A stretch of 64,000 bases of DNA from a virus, in IMG/VR virus record IMGVR_UViG_3300010334_000061, positions 1-64,000 of that record; one strand, written 5' to 3'. A model generated the notes under the pieces. It was not told the origin of the DNA. It did no database searches and saw only the letters and a program-made list of their open reading frames with translations. Both the position numbers and the translations under genes were made by a program. Position 1 is the stretch's first letter, and each line of letters begins with the position of its first letter. Shown piece by piece: positions 29,545 to 63,850 of this stretch.

Positions 29545-32046
29545 TTAAAAGAATTCTGCCAAGTCATTCTTTTCGTCAACAGACCAGCCAATCGAATTCA
29601 TAATTGCGGAAAGTGGGTCAAGGAAAACTTTTTCAAATTGTTTTTCATAATCTACGTATTTATGTAGGTCTAACTGTTTGGGTAATGTTGTAGTAAACGC
29701 AATAACATCTTCACGAATAGTATTTGGTTCACGAAGATAGATAAATTTAATTCTATCGCCTTCACGAATCGGTTGGTATAATTCTGTTAACCCAAGTTCC
29801 TTAATGTGATGATTGAACATCAACGCACCTCGAACATGAATCGGTGTTGATTTGCGATAAATCGAACCAGAATCAGAATACTCTTTCAAATTGTTTACGC
29901 TTCGTGGGAATGCGATATCTTCAATCGGTAACCCATAAAACTCTTTTCTAAAATCAACAATAAATTTACGTAATTGAATCTCATCACCAGCAATCAAAAT
30001 CTTCATTGAATCTTTTAATTTACCACGAACTACCATAGGGGTTGACGACTTAACCATCTCAAGACCCATGATTTTCATTTTGGGTTCAGCATATTGAACA
30101 CCCTCAGAATTGTGTACGTTAAGAACATAACGCTTCTTCGCAGTCCACACACCCTTGTCGGCAATAACTTCACGCTTCATAATCATTTTCTGAGAGAATG
30201 CGTTTTGTCTTTGAGCCAAGTCAGAATAACACTTATCTATGTATAATTGAATTTTATCTTCACAAATCTTATCAATATATTCAACAACTTTTGTTTTATC
30301 TTTCTGTTGTTCTTTCGTGAATACTTTATCAACAAGTGGACCAAATCGTAGATATACAGAGTCAGTGTCAACAGCAATTACATAATCTTCTTTTTCAGTC
30401 TTGAGTAATTTGTTGAAGTATTCATTAAATTTCTTTTCCATCCAACGAATAGACAACTGACCACTCAACGTGATACCTTCAGACATGCGTTTGTCATAAT
30501 ATCGGAAATATTGATTAGCCAACGCACCATAAGCTGAGTTCAACGCAATCTTAAGAGCCATCTGAAGATTATTCAATCGAGATATCTCATTTGTTAGAGA
30601 TTCGTCTTTTGTGTTTTCATATTCTTGTTGAATCTTCAACATTTGTTTCTTTGCTTTACTGCGATTGATGTACATAGTTTCCATCAACTCAGGCAAGAAA
30701 CCTTTGATGTCTTTACGGTAACACCAACCATTCGCAGTACAAGATAAATCTAAATCATGAAAACCACCAGTTTCTTCATGCTCAAGGAAATACCCAACAC
30801 CACCAACGTGTTTATAACCTGCGTCCATTGTTTCAGGACTAATGTTATATTGCATAATCAAATGAGGATATAGACTGTTCAAGTCAAAAGAAACAACCCA
30901 GTTATGCATACCAACAAGTGGTTCTTTAACATAAGCACCTTCAATAACAGAATCTTTATCATTGTGTTGTTTGTTTGGAATCACAATCTTTTTAGAACGC
31001 AAATGATTATAGATGATTGTATCCCACATTCTAACTTGAGAGAACACATCCTCATAGTTTACCTTTGCGTTATACGCCATAACCATAGCCAATTCAATCA
31101 ACTTCATCTTGTCTTCAAGTTTATCAACAAGCACAGTATCATGAATGTTATAATCAACAAACTTCTTCCATCCGTAGGTATAGAAATCTTTGAAAGTATC
31201 GTATTCAGAATAATCTAATTTGTTTTCACCAAGTTCAACAAACGCAATGTGATCCAACTTGTATGATTCTTGCATTGAGTAAGTAAACTTTTTATACAAG
31301 TCAATATAATCAAGAGCAGAAATACCTGCGATGTCATATGAGATTTCTTCAGATCCCTTAACATGAATCCTACGTTCGTTTATAATACCCCATGGGGATA
31401 GTTGCTTAGCATGAGATTCGCCAAGCACATTCATAATCCTGCGTGTTAGATACGGAATATCAAAGAAGTTGATGTTCCAGCCTGTAACGATGTCGGGATA
31501 GTTTTCTTTCCAGAAGTCCAGGAAATTCATAAGAAGTGCTCGCTCACTTTCGCAGTGATGAAATCTTACTTCTCTATTTCCTGTGTATGGATTTTTACCA
31601 AAGGTATGAATCTCTTTGGTTTTGTTGTCCATAAGTGTGATGAGAAGGATTTCCTCATTAGCAGTTTCTATGTTAGGAAATCCTTCCTCGGTTGTGGTTT
31701 CAATATCAATAGAGAAACATTTGATTAGATCTTTATTGAATGTGATGTCAGTAGGATATGTATCTGAGATATACTGGTAAGCAAAGTTTGTGTTACCATA
31801 TACCATGAATCCTTGAACGTCTTTATAACGATCGATAAATTCTTTTGAGTCGCGAATAGATCCTGGACGAATTGAGTAAACAACCTCACCATCAAGTGTA
31901 CGGAAAATTTCACCAGCATTTTTACTCTTAGATGATGCGTAGAGTGTTGGCTTGAAATCTATTTTGTCTGTATATTGTTTTCCGTTTTGATATCCACGTA
32001 CACAAAGTTTGTTTCCCAGAGGGAACACATTTGTATAAAATTCCAT
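29545..32046 (-). CDS. 43: DNA polymerase, family B (T4 gp43-like)
   Basis: Replicative polymerase with proofreading. Exonuclease motif I is FSIDIETTTEEG (about residues 111-122), with GWNINFFDIPYL as motif II. Polymerase motif A is FDLNSLYPHLIMQYN, motif B includes KIALNSAYGALANQYFRYY, and motif C is VDTDSVYLRFG. The length of 833 is near T4 gp43. The C-terminus EKNDLAEFF corresponds in position to the clamp-binding tail of T4/RB69 gp43. It directly follows the DexA-like gene with a 3-base gap. No intein or intron is visible. Confidence 0.97.
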   Translation of the reverse strand: MEFYTNVFPLGNKLCVRGYQNGKQYTDKIDFKPTLYASSKSKNAGEIFRTLDGEVVYSIRPGSIRDSKEFIDRYKDVQGFMVYGNTNFAYQYISDTYPTDITFNKDLIKCFSIDIETTTEEGFPNIETANEEILLITLMDNKTKEIHTFGKNPYTGNREVRFHHCESERALLMNFLDFWKENYPDIVTGWNINFFDIPYLTRRIMNVLGESHAKQLSPWGIINERRIHVKGSEEISYDIAGISALDYIDLYKKFTYSMQESYKLDHIAFVELGENKLDYSEYDTFKDFYTYGWKKFVDYNIHDTVLVDKLEDKMKLIELAMVMAYNAKVNYEDVFSQVRMWDTIIYNHLRSKKIVIPNKQHNDKDSVIEGAYVKEPLVGMHNWVVSFDLNSLYPHLIMQYNISPETMDAGYKHVGGVGYFLEHEETGGFHDLDLSCTANGWCYRKDIKGFLPELMETMYINRSKAKKQMLKIQQEYENTKDESLTNEISRLNNLQMALKIALNSAYGALANQYFRYYDKRMSEGITLSGQLSIRWMEKKFNEYFNKLLKTEKEDYVIAVDTDSVYLRFGPLVDKVFTKEQQKDKTKVVEYIDKICEDKIQLYIDKCYSDLAQRQNAFSQKMIMKREVIADKGVWTAKKRYVLNVHNSEGVQYAEPKMKIMGLEMVKSSTPMVVRGKLKDSMKILIAGDEIQLRKFIVDFRKEFYGLPIEDIAFPRSVNNLKEYSDSGSIYRKSTPIHVRGALMFNHHIKELGLTELYQPIREGDRIKFIYLREPNTIREDVIAFTTTLPKQLDLHKYVDYEKQFEKVFLDPLSAIMNSIGWSVDEKNDLAEFF

Positions 32047-33580: not shown

Positions 33581-33693
33581 CTTCCAATACCTCTTGTTAT
33601 TGCATCCGCACGTGCTTTGCGTGCTTCACCAATTGATTCAAGAATTGATTTGAAAAATGTACCAATTAGTTTAAAGAGTTTCAGTGATCGCAT
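33577..33693 (-). CDS. Very small basic peptide (38 aa)
   Basis: Encodes MRSLKLFKLIGTFFKSILES followed by IGEARKARADAITRGIGR. It is an amphipathic, possibly membrane-binding N-terminal helix with a basic tail; similar short peptides occur in T4-like phages of aquatic bacteria as far as I recall. It overlaps the end of hsp20 upstream and is ATGA-coupled to the 26-residue peptide downstream. Confidence 0.62.
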   Translation of the reverse strand: MRSLKLFKLIGTFFKSILESIGEARKARADAITRGIGR

Positions 33694-34168
33694 CTTGCTC
33701 TTCCTCTGTTAGAAGTTGTTTCTTAGATGCTTTCGCGTCTTTCACTTCAATCTTTTTTGGCTTTTTGTGTTCAGGAATAACACGCTCTAAGAAAATCTTT
33801 AGCATGCCATTGAACATTTCCGCATCCTTAATTTCTGTTTGATCATTAAGTGCGAATGTACGAGTAAACGCACGATTAGCAATACCTTTGAAGACATAGT
33901 CAGAACCATCTTCTGCAGTAGTACCCTTAACAATCAACTTGTCTCCATCAATCTCAATCTCGATGTCTTGCTTAGCAAAGCCAGCAACAGCGATCTCAAT
34001 GACATACTTGTTCTCGTCTGTCTTCTTGATGTTGTAAGGTGGGTAGTTTGGGATATTTTTTGTTAGATCATCATGTAGTTTTGCTAGTTGATTGAATTGC
34101 TCATCAAAACCAACAAACACTCTATCAAAGTCTTGACCGAAAATGGTCGGAATGAATTTATGTACCAT
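33671..34168 (-). CDS. Small heat-shock protein Hsp20 family
   Basis: A 165-residue alpha-crystallin-domain chaperone: NYPPYNIKKTDENKYVIEIA, AGFAKQDIEIEIDGDKLIVKG and RTFALNDQTEIKDAEMFNGM, then the GMLKIFLERV strand typical of IbpA-like proteins. Hsp20 is widespread in cyanophages and other aquatic T4-like phages, where it may protect virion or host proteins. The start at MVHKFIP (TAGGAGAAAA just upstream) is chosen over a 23-codon longer frame that runs into the structured leader. The start coordinate may be off by a base from manual counting. Confidence 0.9.
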   Translation of the reverse strand: MVHKFIPTIFGQDFDRVFVGFDEQFNQLAKLHDDLTKNIPNYPPYNIKKTDENKYVIEIAVAGFAKQDIEIEIDGDKLIVKGTTAEDGSDYVFKGIANRAFTRTFALNDQTEIKDAEMFNGMLKIFLERVIPEHKKPKKIEVKDAKASKKQLLTEEEQDAITETL

Positions 34169-34174
34169 AAGTTT

Positions 34175-34430
34175 TCTCCTATTAAGCGAGTTAGAAAAAC
34201 CCTCAAGCAATCCCCGAAAGCGATTGAAGAGAGCCATATTAAATACTGGTTACGATTCCAGCGATATCGTGACGCCATATCCGCTTTATGCGATTCGTTA
34301 CTTAGCGGTCCTAAGGTGAATCCAAATTAGTGGGGGTTCTGGGCTGGTTTCCCCCAACCAGTTTATCCTAGAGTATTACGTCGCGATAGGACTAGGTTCC
34401 ATCTTTGACGTTCCCATCCCTGAGAATCGT
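34175..34430 (-). ncRNA. Candidate structured RNA leader between pqqA and hsp20
   Basis: About 255 bases without a minus-strand gene. Read on the minus strand, CTGGTT-GGGGGA-AACCAG is a hairpin whose G5 loop can pair with the downstream CCCCC (both within 34330-34365), an H-type pseudoknot. Flanking it are CCTAG/CTAGG, ACGTC/GACGT and CTTAG-GACCG-CTAAG pairings. The density of pairings suggests a folded RNA, either the 5' leader of hsp20 (thermosensor or riboswitch) or an independent RNA. It matches no family I can name. Confidence 0.45.
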
Positions 34431-34502
34431 TTAGCGATTGGCTACGTACATTGTAATTTCAAAGCCAAAACGCATTTCCGTTGCAGTAGGTTTAGTCCAC
34501 AT
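34431..34502 (-). CDS. pqqA: PqqA-like PQQ precursor peptide (23 aa)
   Basis: Encodes a 23-residue peptide starting MWTKP and ending [14 protein letters not shown]. This agrees with PqqA, whose conserved Glu and Tyr in E-V-T-x-Y are cross-linked by the radical-SAM enzyme PqqE to build the cofactor PQQ; here they are Glu15 and Tyr19 in EITMY. Length, the N-terminal MWTKP and the terminal NR also fit bacterial PqqA. The ATG has CGGAGATG upstream at suitable spacing, and a late-type promoter lies about 100 bases upstream. No other pqq gene is in the window, so host PqqB-E would be needed. Too short for routine gene calling. Confidence 0.85.
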
Positions 34503-34544
34503 GTTTTCATCTCCGTATATGTCCGATTTGGACAATAATACTTA

Positions 34545-34558
34545 TTGCCCGAAGGCAA
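34545..34558 (-). terminator. UUCG-loop hairpin upstream of pqqA
   Basis: TTGCC and GGCAA form a 5-bp stem; on the minus strand the loop is TTCG. It lies between the end of the orphan frame at 34590 and the pqqA start, within the putative late transcript. It may be an mRNA end or processing hairpin. Confidence 0.4.
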
Positions 34559-34589: not shown

Positions 34590-34777
34590 CTAACTGTTTT
34601 TATTTATATTATCAAACTTCATCAAAGCAAGTTGCCTTGCTAAAAAAAGTCTAAATTTTACATGTGCACTAAGATCTGTATCTGTATCTTCTTGAACAAT
34701 TTTTGGACGACGATAGGGTGATTGAATATCTAGTTCATCAAACCAATCGTCATCATCGTCATCAATTTCTAAATTAC
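34590..34777 (-). other. Open frame without a normal start codon, coding-like
   Basis: A minus-strand frame reads NLEIDDDDDWFDELDIQSPY, then RRPKIVQEDTDTDLSAHVK and FRLFLARQLALMKFDN, ending at TAG 34590. The composition is that of a real small phage protein, but the frame has no ATG, GTG or TTG back to the preceding stop. It is in the +1 frame relative to the upstream gene, which ends AAG TAA at 34774. Possibilities are a +1 frameshift at that stop, an ATT start, or decay. Confidence 0.45.
34601..34608 (-). promoter_or_regulatory. T4-type late promoter
   Basis: TATAAATA on the minus strand (34608-34601), the exact T4 late consensus recognised with gp55. It lies about 100 bases upstream of pqqA and would read pqqA, the structured leader and hsp20. 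Confidence 0.65.
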
Positions 34778-35073
34778 TTAGAAGTTGCTGTTGCTTTCTT
34801 TGTGTCCTTGGTAGGTGTAGCTTGACTTTTAGTGGCTGCTTTAGCAGCGTCCTTTTCTTTCTTGGCTTCTACCTTTGCCTTAGCATTTGCAGCTGCTTTC
34901 TCTTGAACAGAAGTTGGAGCATGTTTCGCTTCATCTTTCTTAGCAACTGGTTTCTTTGTCTCAGCTTTTTTGGCTGGGGCAGTAGCTGCTGGTTTTGGTT
35001 CAGGTGATTTGGCTGGTTGAGCAAATGATACTGTTGCTACTGAAAGTGCTACGATTGCGATAAGATTTTTCAT
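34774..35073 (-). CDS. Exported Lys/Ala/Pro-rich protein (99 aa)
   Basis: A Sec signal peptide (MKNLIAIVALSVATVSFA, cleavage expected after SFA at residue 18) precedes a mature part made almost only of Lys, Ala, Pro, Thr and Glu (KPAATAPAKKAETKKPVAKK). The mature region resembles histone-H1-like tails yet is predicted to be periplasmic. It is ATGA-coupled to the gene upstream. Function unknown; binding to polyanions at the cell envelope is a guess. Its stop codon is followed at once by the coding-like +1 frame. Confidence 0.72.
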   Translation of the reverse strand: MKNLIAIVALSVATVSFAQPAKSPEPKPAATAPAKKAETKKPVAKKDEAKHAPTSVQEKAAANAKAKVEAKKEKDAAKAATKSQATPTKDTKKATATSK

Positions 35074-58289: not shown

Positions 58290-58760
58290 TTAATGTACTG
58301 TCTTATTTGGTGGTGTCCAAATGTGAGCATCAGAAACTGAAGTCTCTTCTTCAATTTCTTCCATTTTGTTTATAAGATTTTCGACACGTGTTTGTATGTC
58401 TTGTTTAAATTCATCTTGTTGATTCTCTTCTGGCGCAACCAATTCTTCTAAGTTATATGCCTTGAGCGCATCAACTTCTTCGTGTCTATTCAACATCTCA
58501 ATATAATATGGAACAGCATGCTCAGACATTGGTTTGATGTATGTTAATTCGTGTTTCCAAAATGTAAAATGTTTGTCATCGCTGAATGGACAAAATATAG
58601 TTGTTGAGTGGATTTCGCGGAGAATATTTTTTGCTATCGGAACATGTTGTGTTCTGATTGAAAGTGGGAACAATACATTGATTGTATCATCTGTTTCTGA
58701 TTCTACTATGCACAGGAAACTTTCTCCTGTGTTCATACGGATAACTCTAAAATCTGTCAT
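58290..58760 (-). CDS. Conserved T4-like protein with Sm-like N-terminus (156 aa)
   Basis: FRVIRMNTGESFLCIVESET followed by DTINVLFPLSIRTQH opens with the strand pattern also seen at 53412 (IRIIKLMTGEEIIGDV), suggesting paralogous small beta-barrel domains. The C-terminal half is acidic and helical (EEVDALKAYNLEELVAPEEN) and ends in WTPPNKTVH. Four-base overlap with uvsW. Recurs near uvsW in related phages as I recall. Function unknown. Confidence 0.7.
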   Translation of the reverse strand: MTDFRVIRMNTGESFLCIVESETDDTINVLFPLSIRTQHVPIAKNILREIHSTTIFCPFSDDKHFTFWKHELTYIKPMSEHAVPYYIEMLNRHEEVDALKAYNLEELVAPEENQQDEFKQDIQTRVENLINKMEEIEEETSVSDAHIWTPPNKTVH

Positions 58761-60244
58761 AGGTCAATCTCTACAATCTTAGCTGAAAATTGTTCTTCTG
58801 AGTACAGTTTAACTCTCTCCAAAAAATGATTTAATGTATGATTCTTCCAAGATTTATATGTTAAGTCATCAGCAATGTCATATAGATTACAATGTGTTTT
58901 GCCTTCATTAAGTCTTAGACCACGACCAATTGATTGTAGGTTACGTATCTTAGACTTACTTGGGCTTGCAAAAATAACATTCTCAATTGATGGCATGTTA
59001 ATACCAGTAGAGAATGTACCATATGAAGCAAACACTAACATATTACTATTCTTAGTAGCTTTATATCTAATTGCCTCACGTTCTGTTACTTTTACATCAC
59101 CATGAACAATGTGTACTTCTAAATCTTCAGAATCTTTACACATATCATAAAGCACTATACCATGTTTGTCCACATACTGAAATAAGACAAGTGTATTTCC
59201 TTTTAGGGATTTGGCAAGATTTACTATGAAACGATTACGTTTGGAGTTGCTGACTAAAAAGTCCATCTCTTCTTGGTATAAATTATTCTTGCGCTTCTTT
59301 CTGGTGTCCTCATCATATTTCAGCAGTAGACATTTAATATTTAGTTCAGCGACTCTTCCTGACTTCATCAGTTCTTTTGTAGTTGTTACTTTAAACACTG
59401 GTCCAAACATACCTTCAAGCACTAGGCGATGTACTTGTTTACCATCAAGTGTTCCTGTGGTACCGATGCGATATGGGATATTTGTCATCTTTTCCATAAC
59501 AGTTCCCAATGATTTTGCTTTAAATTGATGCGCTTCGTCACCGAATACTACATTGAATTGTTCAAACCAAGCACGTGGTTGTTTATAAATTGATTGCCAT
59601 GTTGTAATCAATACATCAGACGTAATGTCTTTAGTGAAACCACTGTATAATTTCTGACAGTATCTATCAACTGGCCACTGGTTAACATATGAGTAGTCTT
59701 CAAAATCTTTATACATTTGTTCAACAAGTGATGTTGTTGGTACGATAAGAATACATTTCTTACCAGTACCTACGTAATGTCTCATCAGCGTATAGATTAT
59801 TAGGGATTTACCTGATGCGGTAGGAGAGAGCAACATAGCACGATGTTCATTCATGCATTTTTGTATTGCGTCTAATTGATAGTCACGAATCTCGATTGAT
59901 TCGCCACGTGCTGTTAGTTCTAAACTATCAGCAAACTCTTCAACATTTTCATATGTAAAATTGCCTACTGGTAGTTTTTTGTATGTATCATTTTTAGCAT
60001 CAAGGAATTGATAACCATTGCGATTAGCAAATTCTCTAACATAACTATACAATCCTGCGTATAATGTTTTACGATGGATATCATATAATCTTATCTTCCC
60101 ATCCCATAAACGTGCTTTATATGCTGGCATAAACTTAGCACCTGGAACTTCGAATGTAAAAAAGTTTGCCAGTTCTTGTTCTATTCCTGCATCTGAAAAC
60201 ACACGGATATATACATCATCAACTTGTTCTACGTATATCTTCAT
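58757..60244 (-). CDS. uvsW: UvsW RNA-DNA/DNA helicase
   Basis: SF2 helicase that unwinds R-loops and recombination intermediates and favours recombination-dependent replication. The start at 60244 (MKIYVEQVDDVYIRV) overlaps the uvsY stop (TAATG). The N-terminal domain includes ARLWDGKIRLYD. Walker A is LLSPTASGKSLIIYTLMRHY (about residues 135-155), the DEAH-type box is VFGDEAHQFKAKS, and motif VI is LQSIGRGLRLNEGK. 495 residues, near T4. Confidence 0.95.
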   Translation of the reverse strand: MKIYVEQVDDVYIRVFSDAGIEQELANFFTFEVPGAKFMPAYKARLWDGKIRLYDIHRKTLYAGLYSYVREFANRNGYQFLDAKNDTYKKLPVGNFTYENVEEFADSLELTARGESIEIRDYQLDAIQKCMNEHRAMLLSPTASGKSLIIYTLMRHYVGTGKKCILIVPTTSLVEQMYKDFEDYSYVNQWPVDRYCQKLYSGFTKDITSDVLITTWQSIYKQPRAWFEQFNVVFGDEAHQFKAKSLGTVMEKMTNIPYRIGTTGTLDGKQVHRLVLEGMFGPVFKVTTTKELMKSGRVAELNIKCLLLKYDEDTRKKRKNNLYQEEMDFLVSNSKRNRFIVNLAKSLKGNTLVLFQYVDKHGIVLYDMCKDSEDLEVHIVHGDVKVTEREAIRYKATKNSNMLVFASYGTFSTGINMPSIENVIFASPSKSKIRNLQSIGRGLRLNEGKTHCNLYDIADDLTYKSWKNHTLNHFLERVKLYSEEQFSAKIVEIDL

Positions 60245-60681
60245 TACATTCCAACTAAAAATTCTTTCCATTGAATGCTATTTCTAATTTGCCAATCACG
60301 TTGTTTGATTGCATTTAGAACTGACTCAAGAAACATAACAACAGTATTCAAGTATTCAACTTTCTGTTGCATTTGAACAAGGTCGGTGTCGCCTTCTAAA
60401 AATTCTTCCATCTCATTCTTTAATGGTTTTAGTCCTTGCCATTGTAACCAACCAAGATCTTCTAACTCTTGACGACTCAACTCACCACGATAGTAGCGAA
60501 ACTTATTCTTGCGAAGAATATTATAGTCGCCTTTGAGTTTACTCAATTTTAGTTTATAAGTTACAAGATACTGAATATACTCTGCGTGAAGATTTGGTGT
60601 ATATGTTGATGCTTCACCAAGATGATCATCATCAATCGAACAGTCATCTTCCCATTTCTTCATCAATTGCTCAAGATTCAT
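60244..60681 (-). CDS. uvsY: Recombination mediator UvsY
   Basis: Loads UvsX onto gp32-coated single-stranded DNA. NLEQLMKKWEDDCSIDDDHL, EYIQYLVTYKLKLSKLKGDY and KNKFRYYRGELSRQELEDLG match the T4 UvsY pattern. 145 residues. It lies directly before uvsW and after the tail-protein gene, the order seen in marine T4-like phages. Start at 60681 with GGAGTTGTT upstream. Confidence 0.93.
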   Translation of the reverse strand: MNLEQLMKKWEDDCSIDDDHLGEASTYTPNLHAEYIQYLVTYKLKLSKLKGDYNILRKNKFRYYRGELSRQELEDLGWLQWQGLKPLKNEMEEFLEGDTDLVQMQQKVEYLNTVVMFLESVLNAIKQRDWQIRNSIQWKEFLVGM

Positions 60682-61392: not shown

Positions 61393-62748
61393 TTATAGTA
61401 CGTTCTGTACACGTACACGGCGATAGTATACGTTGTTGTTAGAACCAATTGAAGATGCTAATGTAGTACCTGTTGCGAATGGGTTAGCAGCCATACCGTA
61501 ACGTGTCTTGAAACCAATTTTAGGTTGGAAGGTGTTAGGGTCAACAGCACGAACCATTTGTAGAGGTACGTATGGGCAGTAGAATACACCAGCGTCAAAC
61601 GCTGAAGCACCTTTGTAACCAACTACATAGAATTGGTCGTTTGCGCCACCATTAGATGCATATGGATCGATATAAACTTTATAACGACCATTCAATACGC
61701 CAGCGAAAGTATTACCTGTGTCATCAACAGTTAGGTTAGTTGATAGAGCAGGAGCGTAGTCAAGAACACCAGCCATTGCTAATGCAGATGCAACATCTGA
61801 AGAGCAAAGGATGAAGTTACCTTTTCCACGACGTGTTTCTTGAGCGATTACGTTAGCATCACGTTCGATTTGGAACAATAGACCTTTGAATTTCTCAACA
61901 GACCAACGACCATTAGAGTCAGTATCCAAGTCAAAAATACCAGCTGTTGTAACTGTACCACTGTTAGCACCAGACTTAGCTGTGTAATAGATTGTACGGA
62001 TAACTTCACGATTGATTTCGGCAAGAATTTCTGTTGAAAGAATATTGCTTAGTTCGCTTTCAGCGTCAAGACCATGAACTGATTTCAAGTCTTGTGCTAA
62101 TTCGATTGAGTATTCAGCCTTTAGAGCACGTGACTTAGCAGTAACGCTTGTCTTCTCGATTGAGAATGCCATTTGGTTGAATGTTGTAGAACCAGGACCT
62201 GGATCAGAAGCAGGTGAAGCACCTGTTTGTGAAGATGTATAACCACCTTCAGCCTGAGCTGTAGTCATACCACCTGGAGCATTAACTGAACTAAACCAGT
62301 TAGAACCAGAGATAGTTGATTCGTTAGTGTTAGCACCTAAGTCACCACCAGAGAACTCAGCGTCAGCTTCGTTGTATAGTGCCTCAGTACCACCTTGTGT
62401 TGAATAACGTGACTTCATCGCGAAGATTAAGCCAGTTGGACCAGTCATCGGTTGAACACCGCAAATGTCATAAGCGATCATTTGTGGAGCAGCACGACGT
62501 ACTAGGTTGATAAGAATTGGGTCATACTTAGCAACACCACCAGTGTCTGGGTTTGTTGATGAGCCGTTGTAGTTAGACATTGTTGGAGCTGTCTCAAACA
62601 ATGCGCTACGCTCTTCGCGTAATGCCTTTTCTTGGTTTTCTAAAAGAACTGCAGTAACTTCTTTACGGTACTGGTCTTTGATTTCTGGCGCAGATTCGTG
62701 TTCTAGAATCGGTGCCCATTTTTTTACGAGATCTTCTCTTAACATCAT
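61393..62748 (-). CDS. 23: Major capsid protein gp23
   Basis: The major head protein, 451 residues, shorter than T4 gp23. AAPQMIAYDICGVQPMTGPT and GLIFAMKSRYSTQ are the core gp23 blocks, and near the end MVRAVDPNTFQPKIGFKTRY and GMAANPFA. A prohead-protease site of the gp21 type (I/L-x-E) is likely at ALFE|TAPT, residues 49-56, analogous to the T4 cleavage of gp23 to gp23*. GGAGAAACTACA precedes the first of two adjacent ATGs. Scaffold gene gp22 is upstream. Confidence 0.96.
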   Translation of the reverse strand: MMLREDLVKKWAPILEHESAPEIKDQYRKEVTAVLLENQEKALREERSALFETAPTMSNYNGSSTNPDTGGVAKYDPILINLVRRAAPQMIAYDICGVQPMTGPTGLIFAMKSRYSTQGGTEALYNEADAEFSGGDLGANTNESTISGSNWFSSVNAPGGMTTAQAEGGYTSSQTGASPASDPGPGSTTFNQMAFSIEKTSVTAKSRALKAEYSIELAQDLKSVHGLDAESELSNILSTEILAEINREVIRTIYYTAKSGANSGTVTTAGIFDLDTDSNGRWSVEKFKGLLFQIERDANVIAQETRRGKGNFILCSSDVASALAMAGVLDYAPALSTNLTVDDTGNTFAGVLNGRYKVYIDPYASNGGANDQFYVVGYKGASAFDAGVFYCPYVPLQMVRAVDPNTFQPKIGFKTRYGMAANPFATGTTLASSIGSNNNVYYRRVRVQNVL

Positions 62749-62776: not shown

Positions 62777-63850
62777 TTATCTTAGTTTCTTAATTGCTGA
62801 AGCATAATGAGCCACTGATTCATTAATCATCTGCTCATCAGTTGACACTTGAGTATCAACATCTTTAGCCACAGGGGATGACTTCTTGAAATATGATTCA
62901 CGAATCAACTGTAGTTTACCTTGTAGGGTATCAGCATCTTCGCTAACAATTTCAGCTGCCAAACCTTTGAATTTCTCTGCTTCTGTGTCAGTTAAACCTT
63001 CACATAAGCCAGAAACGATTTCTGCTCGCTTCATTTCTGCAATTTGCTTGCTCATTTCAATATTTGCATTTACGGAATCATTCAATTTGCTGCCTAATTC
63101 ACTGACTTGTTCTTCAAGTGATCCTAGAACATCATACTTCTCTGCTGGGACATCGACGTAGTGCTCTTCGAATACTCTCTTGATACCATCAATGAAAGAT
63201 TCTGCAAGTTCAGCTTTAATTCCGCTTTCGAGGGCAAGTTCATTCTGTTTCATCCACTGCTCGGTAATATAACCGAGATATCCATCAACCTTTTCAACGA
63301 GTTCCTCTTTAATTTTCACAAACTCTTCTACGAGTTGTGCATCATACTGCTCTTGGATTTTAACAAGTTCAGTTTTGATTCTTGACGTAACAGCTGCTTC
63401 AAAAATAGTAGCTGCTTTTTCTTTAAATTCTTCTGATAGGTCTTCACCATCAACCAATGCTGCAACATCTTCAGCCATGCCATGAGAAACACCACCTGGA
63501 GTGATATCAATTTTAGCACCTGCTGCTTTGTATTGACCAGCAACTGGATCTTTTACACTTGGTTGTGGCTCAGAGCCAGCACCACCTTGACCAGATCTAG
63601 ATGTATCTTTAGATGTTCCTGGAGCTGGAGGTGCAAAGTTGTTGTTACGATCATTGTCGTCATTATCACCATCAACATTAGCATCAGAAGATACCTGTTT
63701 GTTTGATTTTTCTTTGATTGTTGCTTTAGCAGATGTGTTGTTAGAACCTTCTGATGCTTCACCATCTGGATCTTGACCATTAATGGCTTTTAATTCCTGA
63801 AGTTTTTGCGATTCAGCTAACAATTCTGCGATTTTTCTTTCAATTGACAT
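62777..63850 (-). CDS. 22: Prohead core scaffolding protein gp22
   Basis: Scaffold inside the prohead, degraded by the prohead protease during maturation. The protein is helical and acidic (EEFVKIKEELVEKVDGYLGY; EQVSELGSKLNDSVNANIEM), 357 residues with an inserted low-complexity Asn/Asp/Gly/Pro region (residues about 30-110). Multiple I/L-x-E sites fit protease digestion. Position just upstream of gp23 and CAGGAG before the ATG. The start MSIERKIAELLAESQKLQ fits the family. Confidence 0.88.
   Translation of the reverse strand: MSIERKIAELLAESQKLQELKAINGQDPDGEASEGSNNTSAKATIKEKSNKQVSSDANVDGDNDDNDRNNNFAPPAPGTSKDTSRSGQGGAGSEPQPSVKDPVAGQYKAAGAKIDITPGGVSHGMAEDVAALVDGEDLSEEFKEKAATIFEAAVTSRIKTELVKIQEQYDAQLVEEFVKIKEELVEKVDGYLGYITEQWMKQNELALESGIKAELAESFIDGIKRVFEEHYVDVPAEKYDVLGSLEEQVSELGSKLNDSVNANIEMSKQIAEMKRAEIVSGLCEGLTDTEAEKFKGLAAEIVSEDADTLQGKLQLIRESYFKKSSPVAKDVDTQVSTDEQMINESVAHYASAIKKLR

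Follow-up and report, generated by a model that had tools for sequence, protein, structure and literature searches.

The stretch analysed here (the window: 64,000 bases out of a virus record of 64,528) comes from a T4-like phage, and its minus-strand frame at 34502-34431 encodes, judging from its sequence, a genuine PqqA-family peptide. This pqqA is probably a genuine gene from methylotroph hosts that acts as an auxiliary metabolic gene, supplying the substrate of PQQ synthesis so that methanol oxidation continues after host shut-off. Phage pqqA was confined to methylotroph phages in one collection of 50,697 records, and the phages tested had neither pqqC nor pqqE. The gene and its candidate expression signals are as follows.

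34431..34502, minus strand: pqqA, 23 codons plus stop (TAA, 34433-34431), PqqA precursor peptide, over the PF08042 and TIGR02107 cut-offs
34511..34514, minus strand: GGAG, ribosome-binding site for pqqA (8 nt ahead of its ATG), read from the sequence
34539..34546, minus strand: AATAAGTA, possible late-promoter-like box (by-eye sequence comparison, no statistics)
34601..34608, minus strand: TATAAATA, an exact word of the T4 late-promoter type, ~99 nt ahead of the pqqA ATG (weak candidate)

The first-pass annotation had placed a 23-codon gene with a ribosome site at 34431-34502, strand unstated, and had described its product as having the PqqA layout, with Glu and Tyr placed as in bacterial PqqA. 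Gene, ribosome site and coordinates were confirmed and the strand was found to be minus (ATG at 34502-34500, stop at 34433-34431, read from the sequence); the plus-strand frame at the same coordinates gives an unrelated peptide. The layout was borne out by matches to Pfam PF08042 (40.4 bits, E 2.7e-10; cut-off 21.1) and to the NCBIfam equivalog model TIGR02107 (41.8 bits, E 6.5e-11; cut-off 20). PHROGs, which has no family for the peptide, gave no match. Because this was the sole PF08042 match in the 64,528-base record and none was obtained in 14 control genomes, the match is more than chance, and a chance open reading frame is ruled out by the profile E-values together with the conservation described below. 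Glu15 and Tyr19, the residues known to be joined by PqqE, stand in the expected E-x3-Y spacing and are among ten positions that are invariant across ten aligned PqqA peptides.

Bacterial contamination of the window was ruled out by its T4-like genes, which comprise those listed here together with genes for a clamp loader A subunit and a RegA-type translational regulator and with hsp20, the downstream neighbour of pqqA.

29545-32046: B-family polymerase
33671..34168, minus strand: hsp20 (small heat-shock protein), PF00011, E 1.1e-17
58757-60271: UvsW helicase
61393-62748: gp23 major capsid protein
62777-63850: scaffold protein

A host-type metabolic gene thus lies within a T4-like phage gene set and is conserved in relatives, which is the pattern of an auxiliary metabolic gene.

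A late-type promoter beside hsp20 had also been claimed. The hsp20 neighbour was upheld (its start was picked by a ribosome site kept in relatives), and the promoter is plausible only. TATAAATA, an exact word of the T4 late-promoter type, is weak evidence because words of this type are no more frequent in the window than by chance (3 observed, 4.48 expected). Relatives L005-L007 and L011-L014 have, by eye, TATAAGTA at about the same place as AATAAGTA in the window. A sigma-70-type promoter for pqqA was rejected, none being found near the gene. A 92-codon minus-strand open frame with an acidic stretch (34590-34868) begins with no ATG, GTG or TTG close by and gave no match in Pfam. It overlaps the end of a signal-peptide-like protein rich in lysine and alanine (35073-34774), and its translation may depend on a frameshift or on a rare start.

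Between pqqA and hsp20 a conserved structured leader RNA was delineated by strong covariation.

34430-34194, minus strand: leader RNA, core 34242..34309 (covariation; it matches the model by construction, the window being in the model)
34284-34282 with 34254-34252, minus strand: pseudoknot of the core
34281-34263, minus strand: hairpin A of the core
34262-34245, minus strand: hairpin B of the core, with GUAA in its loop
34199..34221, minus strand: terminator-like hairpin after the leader RNA and before hsp20 (2 such sites in the region, 0.4 expected)

The leader includes a CCTTAGG box. Across 14 sequences, hairpins A and B and the pseudoknot paired in 100% of cells and a weaker upstream stem in 78.6%; over 16 pairs, 96.0% of cells paired, 8 pairs changed on both sides and the covariation score was 0.405. 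Pairing, two-sided changes and covariation score were reached by 0 of 500 shuffles, and the number of further pair types by 52 of 500. Sliding the partners cut pairing to 30-46%, a contrast that is partly expected since the structure was named after viewing the same sequences. RNAalifold returned the same two hairpins from 33 distinct sequences (paired in 33/33), and single-sequence folding was not unusual (z 0.01 to -1.24). With the 14 sequences as its basis, a model matched L018, L019, L025, L017 and L055, all outside the model, at E 1.5e-6 to 4e-4, and matched L005, L011 and L012 only at E 0.03; 22 of 40 sources matched. In whole-record searches 8 of 19 records matched, including the 356-kb record of L111, and Melnitz did not. 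Rfam 15 gave no match over thresholds in the window, and permissive Rfam searches of the leader region and four relatives returned three chance-level matches.

The same leader was found elsewhere (e.g., L033:4603-4739, L052, L058, L021, L022, L044, L161 and L017) and, in T4-like phages whether or not they carry pqqA, lies ahead of hsp20 either directly or with a small gene in between; 9 of 10 leader-bearing records tested lacked pqqA. Its assignment as a 3' UTR of pqqA was rejected because it also stands before hsp20 or the small gene in records without pqqA. Of 30 distinct leaders, 22 have TATAAATA within the 45 bases preceding them. The element could act as a leader with a regulatory role or as an RNA in its own right. 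The small gene (~73 codons), missing in the window, lies just before hsp20 at 4769-4990 in L012 and likewise in L005, L006, L016, L020, L033 and others; its product was phasin-like by eye, an identification that was dropped as Pfam gave nothing over cut-off.

Conservation of pqqA was followed through hsp20. Eighty hsp20-related loci were taken from IMG/VR and the records of 50 searched whole for PF08042, which was over cut-off in 12; the gene is therefore accessory in this group, 38 of the 50 records (many of them short) being without it. The order pqqA, leader RNA, hsp20 is the same as in the window in L002-L004, which also carry the window's own peptide. In L005-L007, L012-L014 and L020 a small gene separates pqqA from hsp20, which follows at ~0.5 kb; the distance is 3 kb in L011, and the two genes are far apart in L055.

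Seven pqqA sequences found through hsp20 (6 distinct) gave pN 0.068, pS 0.406 and pN/pS 0.168, and six phages found by tblastn gave pN/pS 0.191. Single-pair tests for selection ranged from p 0.014 to 3e-7; between window and L020 there are 9.5 synonymous changes against 3.5 non-synonymous ones (p 3e-6), and the window's comparison with Melnitz gave p 0.014. Ribosome sites of phage pqqA are kept while flanks diverge. A pN/pS of 0.137 over 86 distinct sequences is biased, most rows having been found with a DNA pattern (below), and was not relied on. The frame is under purifying selection in related phages; the first-pass annotation had named absence of a conserved frame there as grounds for abandoning the assignment, and the frame is kept, though not in the 38 hsp20-related records noted above. 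Lack of a PqqA profile match had been named as such grounds too, and both profiles match.

The window peptide was searched by tblastn (E up to 10) against the 50,697 phage records and matched 12: nine from Methylophilales or Methylophilaceae phages (Methylophilales Venkman, MEP401, MEP402, MEP301 and four Melnitz genomes; Methylophilaceae P19250A), one from environmental podovirus MW202481, and two misnamed contigs filed as Acinetobacter phage MD-2021a. Acinetobacter-type, Klebsiella-type and Pseudomonas-type PqqA queries returned the identical 12 records and no others. One MD-2021a contig (CAKLQF020000010.1) has a bacterial-type pqqABCDE locus beside ppk and fur and is probably bacterial DNA; the other (CAKLQH020000055.1) was judged by its identical peptide only. 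Carriage of pqqA by phages of non-methylotroph PQQ makers was rejected, as these contigs were the sole such matches and the one read was of bacterial type. The nine methylophages are no census: MEP431-434, HIM624-A, phiMB624-A and Venkman EXVC038S are in the taxonomy, were unmatched and are perhaps outside the collection.

In six isolate records (Venkman, MEP402, MEP301, P19250A, Melnitz EXVC044M and MEP401) pqqA is unannotated on the coding strand, and in Melnitz and MW202481 a hypothetical protein is called on the strand opposite. Whole-record searches with PF08042 were positive in 7 of 7 pqqA phages and in 0 of 4 T4-like relatives (SAR11 phages Mosig and HTVC008M; cyanophages P-TIM40 and S-BM3). 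Melnitz, Mosig and HTVC008M form one cluster, according to the accessible portion of PMC9004378; since only Melnitz among them has pqqA, the gene follows the host in this cluster.

For metagenomes and bacterial genomes, a degenerate DNA pattern for EMRFGFE[V/I/M]TMY was scanned. At least 120 stretches were found in IMG/VR, with a complete PqqA in 80 of 80 loci among the matches listed; in bacterial genomes the matches listed gave 80 loci, mostly titled as Methylophilaceae members. When 91 pqqA loci were joined wherever they had two or more proteins in common, they fell into 12 groups (53, 14 and 12 loci, three pairs and six singles), which may be split too finely as loci were ≤15 kb. Venkman, MEP301, P19250A and MW202481 fall in the group of 53 and the window in the group of 14; Melnitz is in one of the pairs, and MEP402 and L111 (of the 356-kb contig) are singles. 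Ten large proteins from less clear loci were examined, of which 8 matched phage families, including five portal or tail proteins. Not everything in the virus set is clean: a further single, L122, looks bacterial, its 10 examined proteins including HSP70, curli, a formate-dehydrogenase-like molybdoprotein, SoxYZ and a CHASE2 cyclase and no phage hallmark. L122 and L336 (IMGVR_UViG_3300025120_009955) stand for a contig filed as viral that carries pqqA with a methanol-dehydrogenase-type protein, HSP70, curli and SoxYZ and is bacterial-looking. Tandem pqqA pairs ~200 bases apart were seen in methylotroph-related genomes, in L227 (7116/7314), L230 (2496/2696) and G091 (LSUCC0665; 875061/875260); the two peptides differ slightly in L227 and in L230.

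The chances are about even that pqqA is a recurrent, independently acquired signature of methylotroph phages, in which several unlike groups carry only the consumed substrate of PQQ synthesis, the part that runs out after host shut-off. It would then serve as a marker predicting the host, one overlooked owing to its length of 23 codons.

Of the other genes of the pathway, those for PqqE and PqqC did not accompany phage pqqA. PqqE was over cut-off in 0 of 50 records, 49 of them with pqqA, and two pqqA-bearing records gave weak radical-SAM/PqqE-like matches below cut-off. PqqC was found in none of 26 virus-collection records and in 2 of 2 host genomes. The window record has neither PqqE nor PqqC, and so lacks linkage to these two members of pqqB-E; such linkage is usual for pqqA, not required, and orphan copies are common in the host family. 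Methanol dehydrogenase was rejected as a usual partner of phage pqqA: of 50 records searched, the window's among them, it was found only in the bacterial-looking L122.

Among the 120 host-family genomes drawn, incomplete ones included, pqqA was present in all and in at least two copies in 113 (mean 4.2, median 4, maximum 12); 33 genomes of ≤1.4 Mb average 2.5 copies and the others 4.9. Several copies are as expected if substrate dosage matters. Five copies are described for a methanol-grown PQQ producer in the accessible text of PMC9851590. For Acetobacter, PMC7936290 reports 29% more PQQ on addition of pqqAB, against an eightfold rise with the entire cluster; as the entire cluster lifts PQQ far more, PqqA is not always limiting.

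A PQQ-making, possibly methylotrophic host had been suggested for the virus, and the hosts of the isolate pqqA phages agree with this. The best isolate matches of the capsid were Melnitz (66.0%), then SAR11 phages (64.9% and 63.2%) and cyanophages (63-64%) close behind; for the DNA polymerase, the best 20 matches listed were cyanophages (54-56%) and unannotated marine viruses. The window peptide ends in VANR, where VMNK or VCNR is common in Methylophilaceae, and this ending and EITMY differ from the commonest form in that family; IANR endings occur in MAGs titled Burkholderiales and Rhodocyclaceae. Given pqqA and the nearest capsid in Melnitz phages, our best guess is a methylotroph host, most likely one of the Methylophilaceae.

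PQQ is the cofactor of methanol dehydrogenase. In its synthesis a cross-link between Glu and Tyr of PqqA is made by PqqE together with PqqD; one PqqA is consumed per PQQ, whereas PqqB-E are reusable. Having presumably acquired the gene from methylotroph hosts, the phage would make the 23-residue substrate during infection, possibly late, from TATAAATA (34601-34608) or from AATAAGTA (34539-34546), where relatives have TATAAGTA. Host PqqD would present the peptide to host PqqE, which would link Glu15 with Tyr19; PqqB, PqqC and a host protease would then complete PQQ for methanol dehydrogenase. A phage halting host gene expression would thus need pqqA alone to keep or raise PQQ and methanol-driven energy. 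Expression, use by host enzymes and benefit to the phage are inferred, and PQQ output may likewise rise during infection.

Other readings were weighed against supply of PQQ for methanol oxidation. A working PqqA might serve a non-methylotroph host, in which PQQ feeds glucose or alcohol dehydrogenase; Pseudomonas, Klebsiella and Acinetobacter, for example, use the PQQ they make to oxidise sugars. In its favour are the VANR ending and EITMY in the window peptide and the IANR endings in Burkholderiales- and Rhodocyclaceae-titled MAGs, but no phage of those three genera matched in the 50,697 records save the two misnamed contigs, and every host named for pqqA phages belongs to the Methylophilales, which leaves this reading unlikely. 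That another radical-SAM enzyme instead turns the peptide into something other than PQQ is very hard to credit: the PqqE-like matches in two pqqA-bearing records would suit it, but they are weak and below cut-off, the window's own record has no such enzyme match, and the TIGR02107 equivalog model was passed by 21 bits.

The phage peptide could also be a decoy or regulator that occupies host PqqD/PqqE or the processing protease, lowering or diverting PQQ and slowing methanol oxidation. A substrate-like peptide could indeed compete with host PqqA, though nothing direct points to this; a decoy would not need reactive residues, yet phage copies do not vary in Glu, Tyr or the flanking residues, and four compared phage peptides equal host ones across residues 2-23. 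We consider it improbable, and slightly more so that pqqA is a passenger, a short host gene taken with adjacent DNA and kept without effect. Accessory status in the hsp20-related group (12/50) and variable position between phages would fit a passenger, but pN/pS of 0.17-0.19 with significant single pairs, ribosome sites that outlast their flanks and recurrence in many phage groups would not, nor did host pqq neighbours (pqqE and pqqC tested) come along. Supply of PqqA to a methylotroph host accordingly remains the preferred reading.

Whether earlier reports of phage pqqA cover this lineage was left open in the first-pass annotation; a phage PqqA has been reported before, in a T4-like Methylophilaceae virus. 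The accessible text of PMC7678222 describes Lake Baikal VP_139 and VP_266, T4-like and assigned to Methylophilaceae, both with methanol dehydrogenase and VP_266 also with PqqA. By that description, not by sequence, VP_266 is like the window virus in being T4-like, in its PqqA and in its Methylophilaceae assignment, and differs, as does VP_139, in carrying methanol dehydrogenase, none being found in the window record. In a 2026 reservoir study (PMC13188868), pqqA, pqqD and pqqE of viruses are counted among the genes for phosphate solubilisation. A full-text search of the papers on Melnitz (PMC9004378), Venkman (PMC8163748), MEP401/402 (PMC10580990) and MEP301 (PMC8024684) gave no phage PqqA, and the Melnitz paper names PQQ only in growth medium. 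An earlier report of pqqA spread over methylotroph phages was not found in the literature searched, most subscription papers lying outside it. Phage PqqA itself is not new; its pattern of spread across methylotroph phages seems to be.

Methylophilaceae (OM43, Methylopumilus) are widespread aquatic methylotrophs. Should viruses of this family routinely supply PQQ synthesis, methanol oxidation would be kept going during infection, and a marker of 69 bases could help in linking many environmental viruses to their hosts. With phages and hosts in culture, methylophage pqqA would also cleanly test the general idea that phages bring along what a pathway consumes and not the enzymes that run it.

Compared with the known PqqA family (PF08042/TIGR02107), the window peptide is of the betaproteobacterial methylotroph type, with the common length, the W-T-x-P start, the E-x3-Y pair and a full-length profile match; it differs in being phage-borne, in being an orphan without pqqC or pqqE, and in its uncommon I at position 16 and VANR end. 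The isolate phages Venkman, P19250A, MEP301, MEP401/402 and Melnitz carry the same peptide family (five aligned, 73-83% identical) and, in the five tested, likewise have no pqqC or pqqE; unlike the window virus they are siphovirus-like, Zobellviridae or of another Kyanoviridae branch, with other gene neighbours, and in Melnitz no linked structured RNA was found. An analogy is cyanophage psbA, where a phage likewise would supply the fastest-used part of a host energy pathway; the psbA product is a protein subunit, whereas PqqA is a peptide substrate that is itself consumed.
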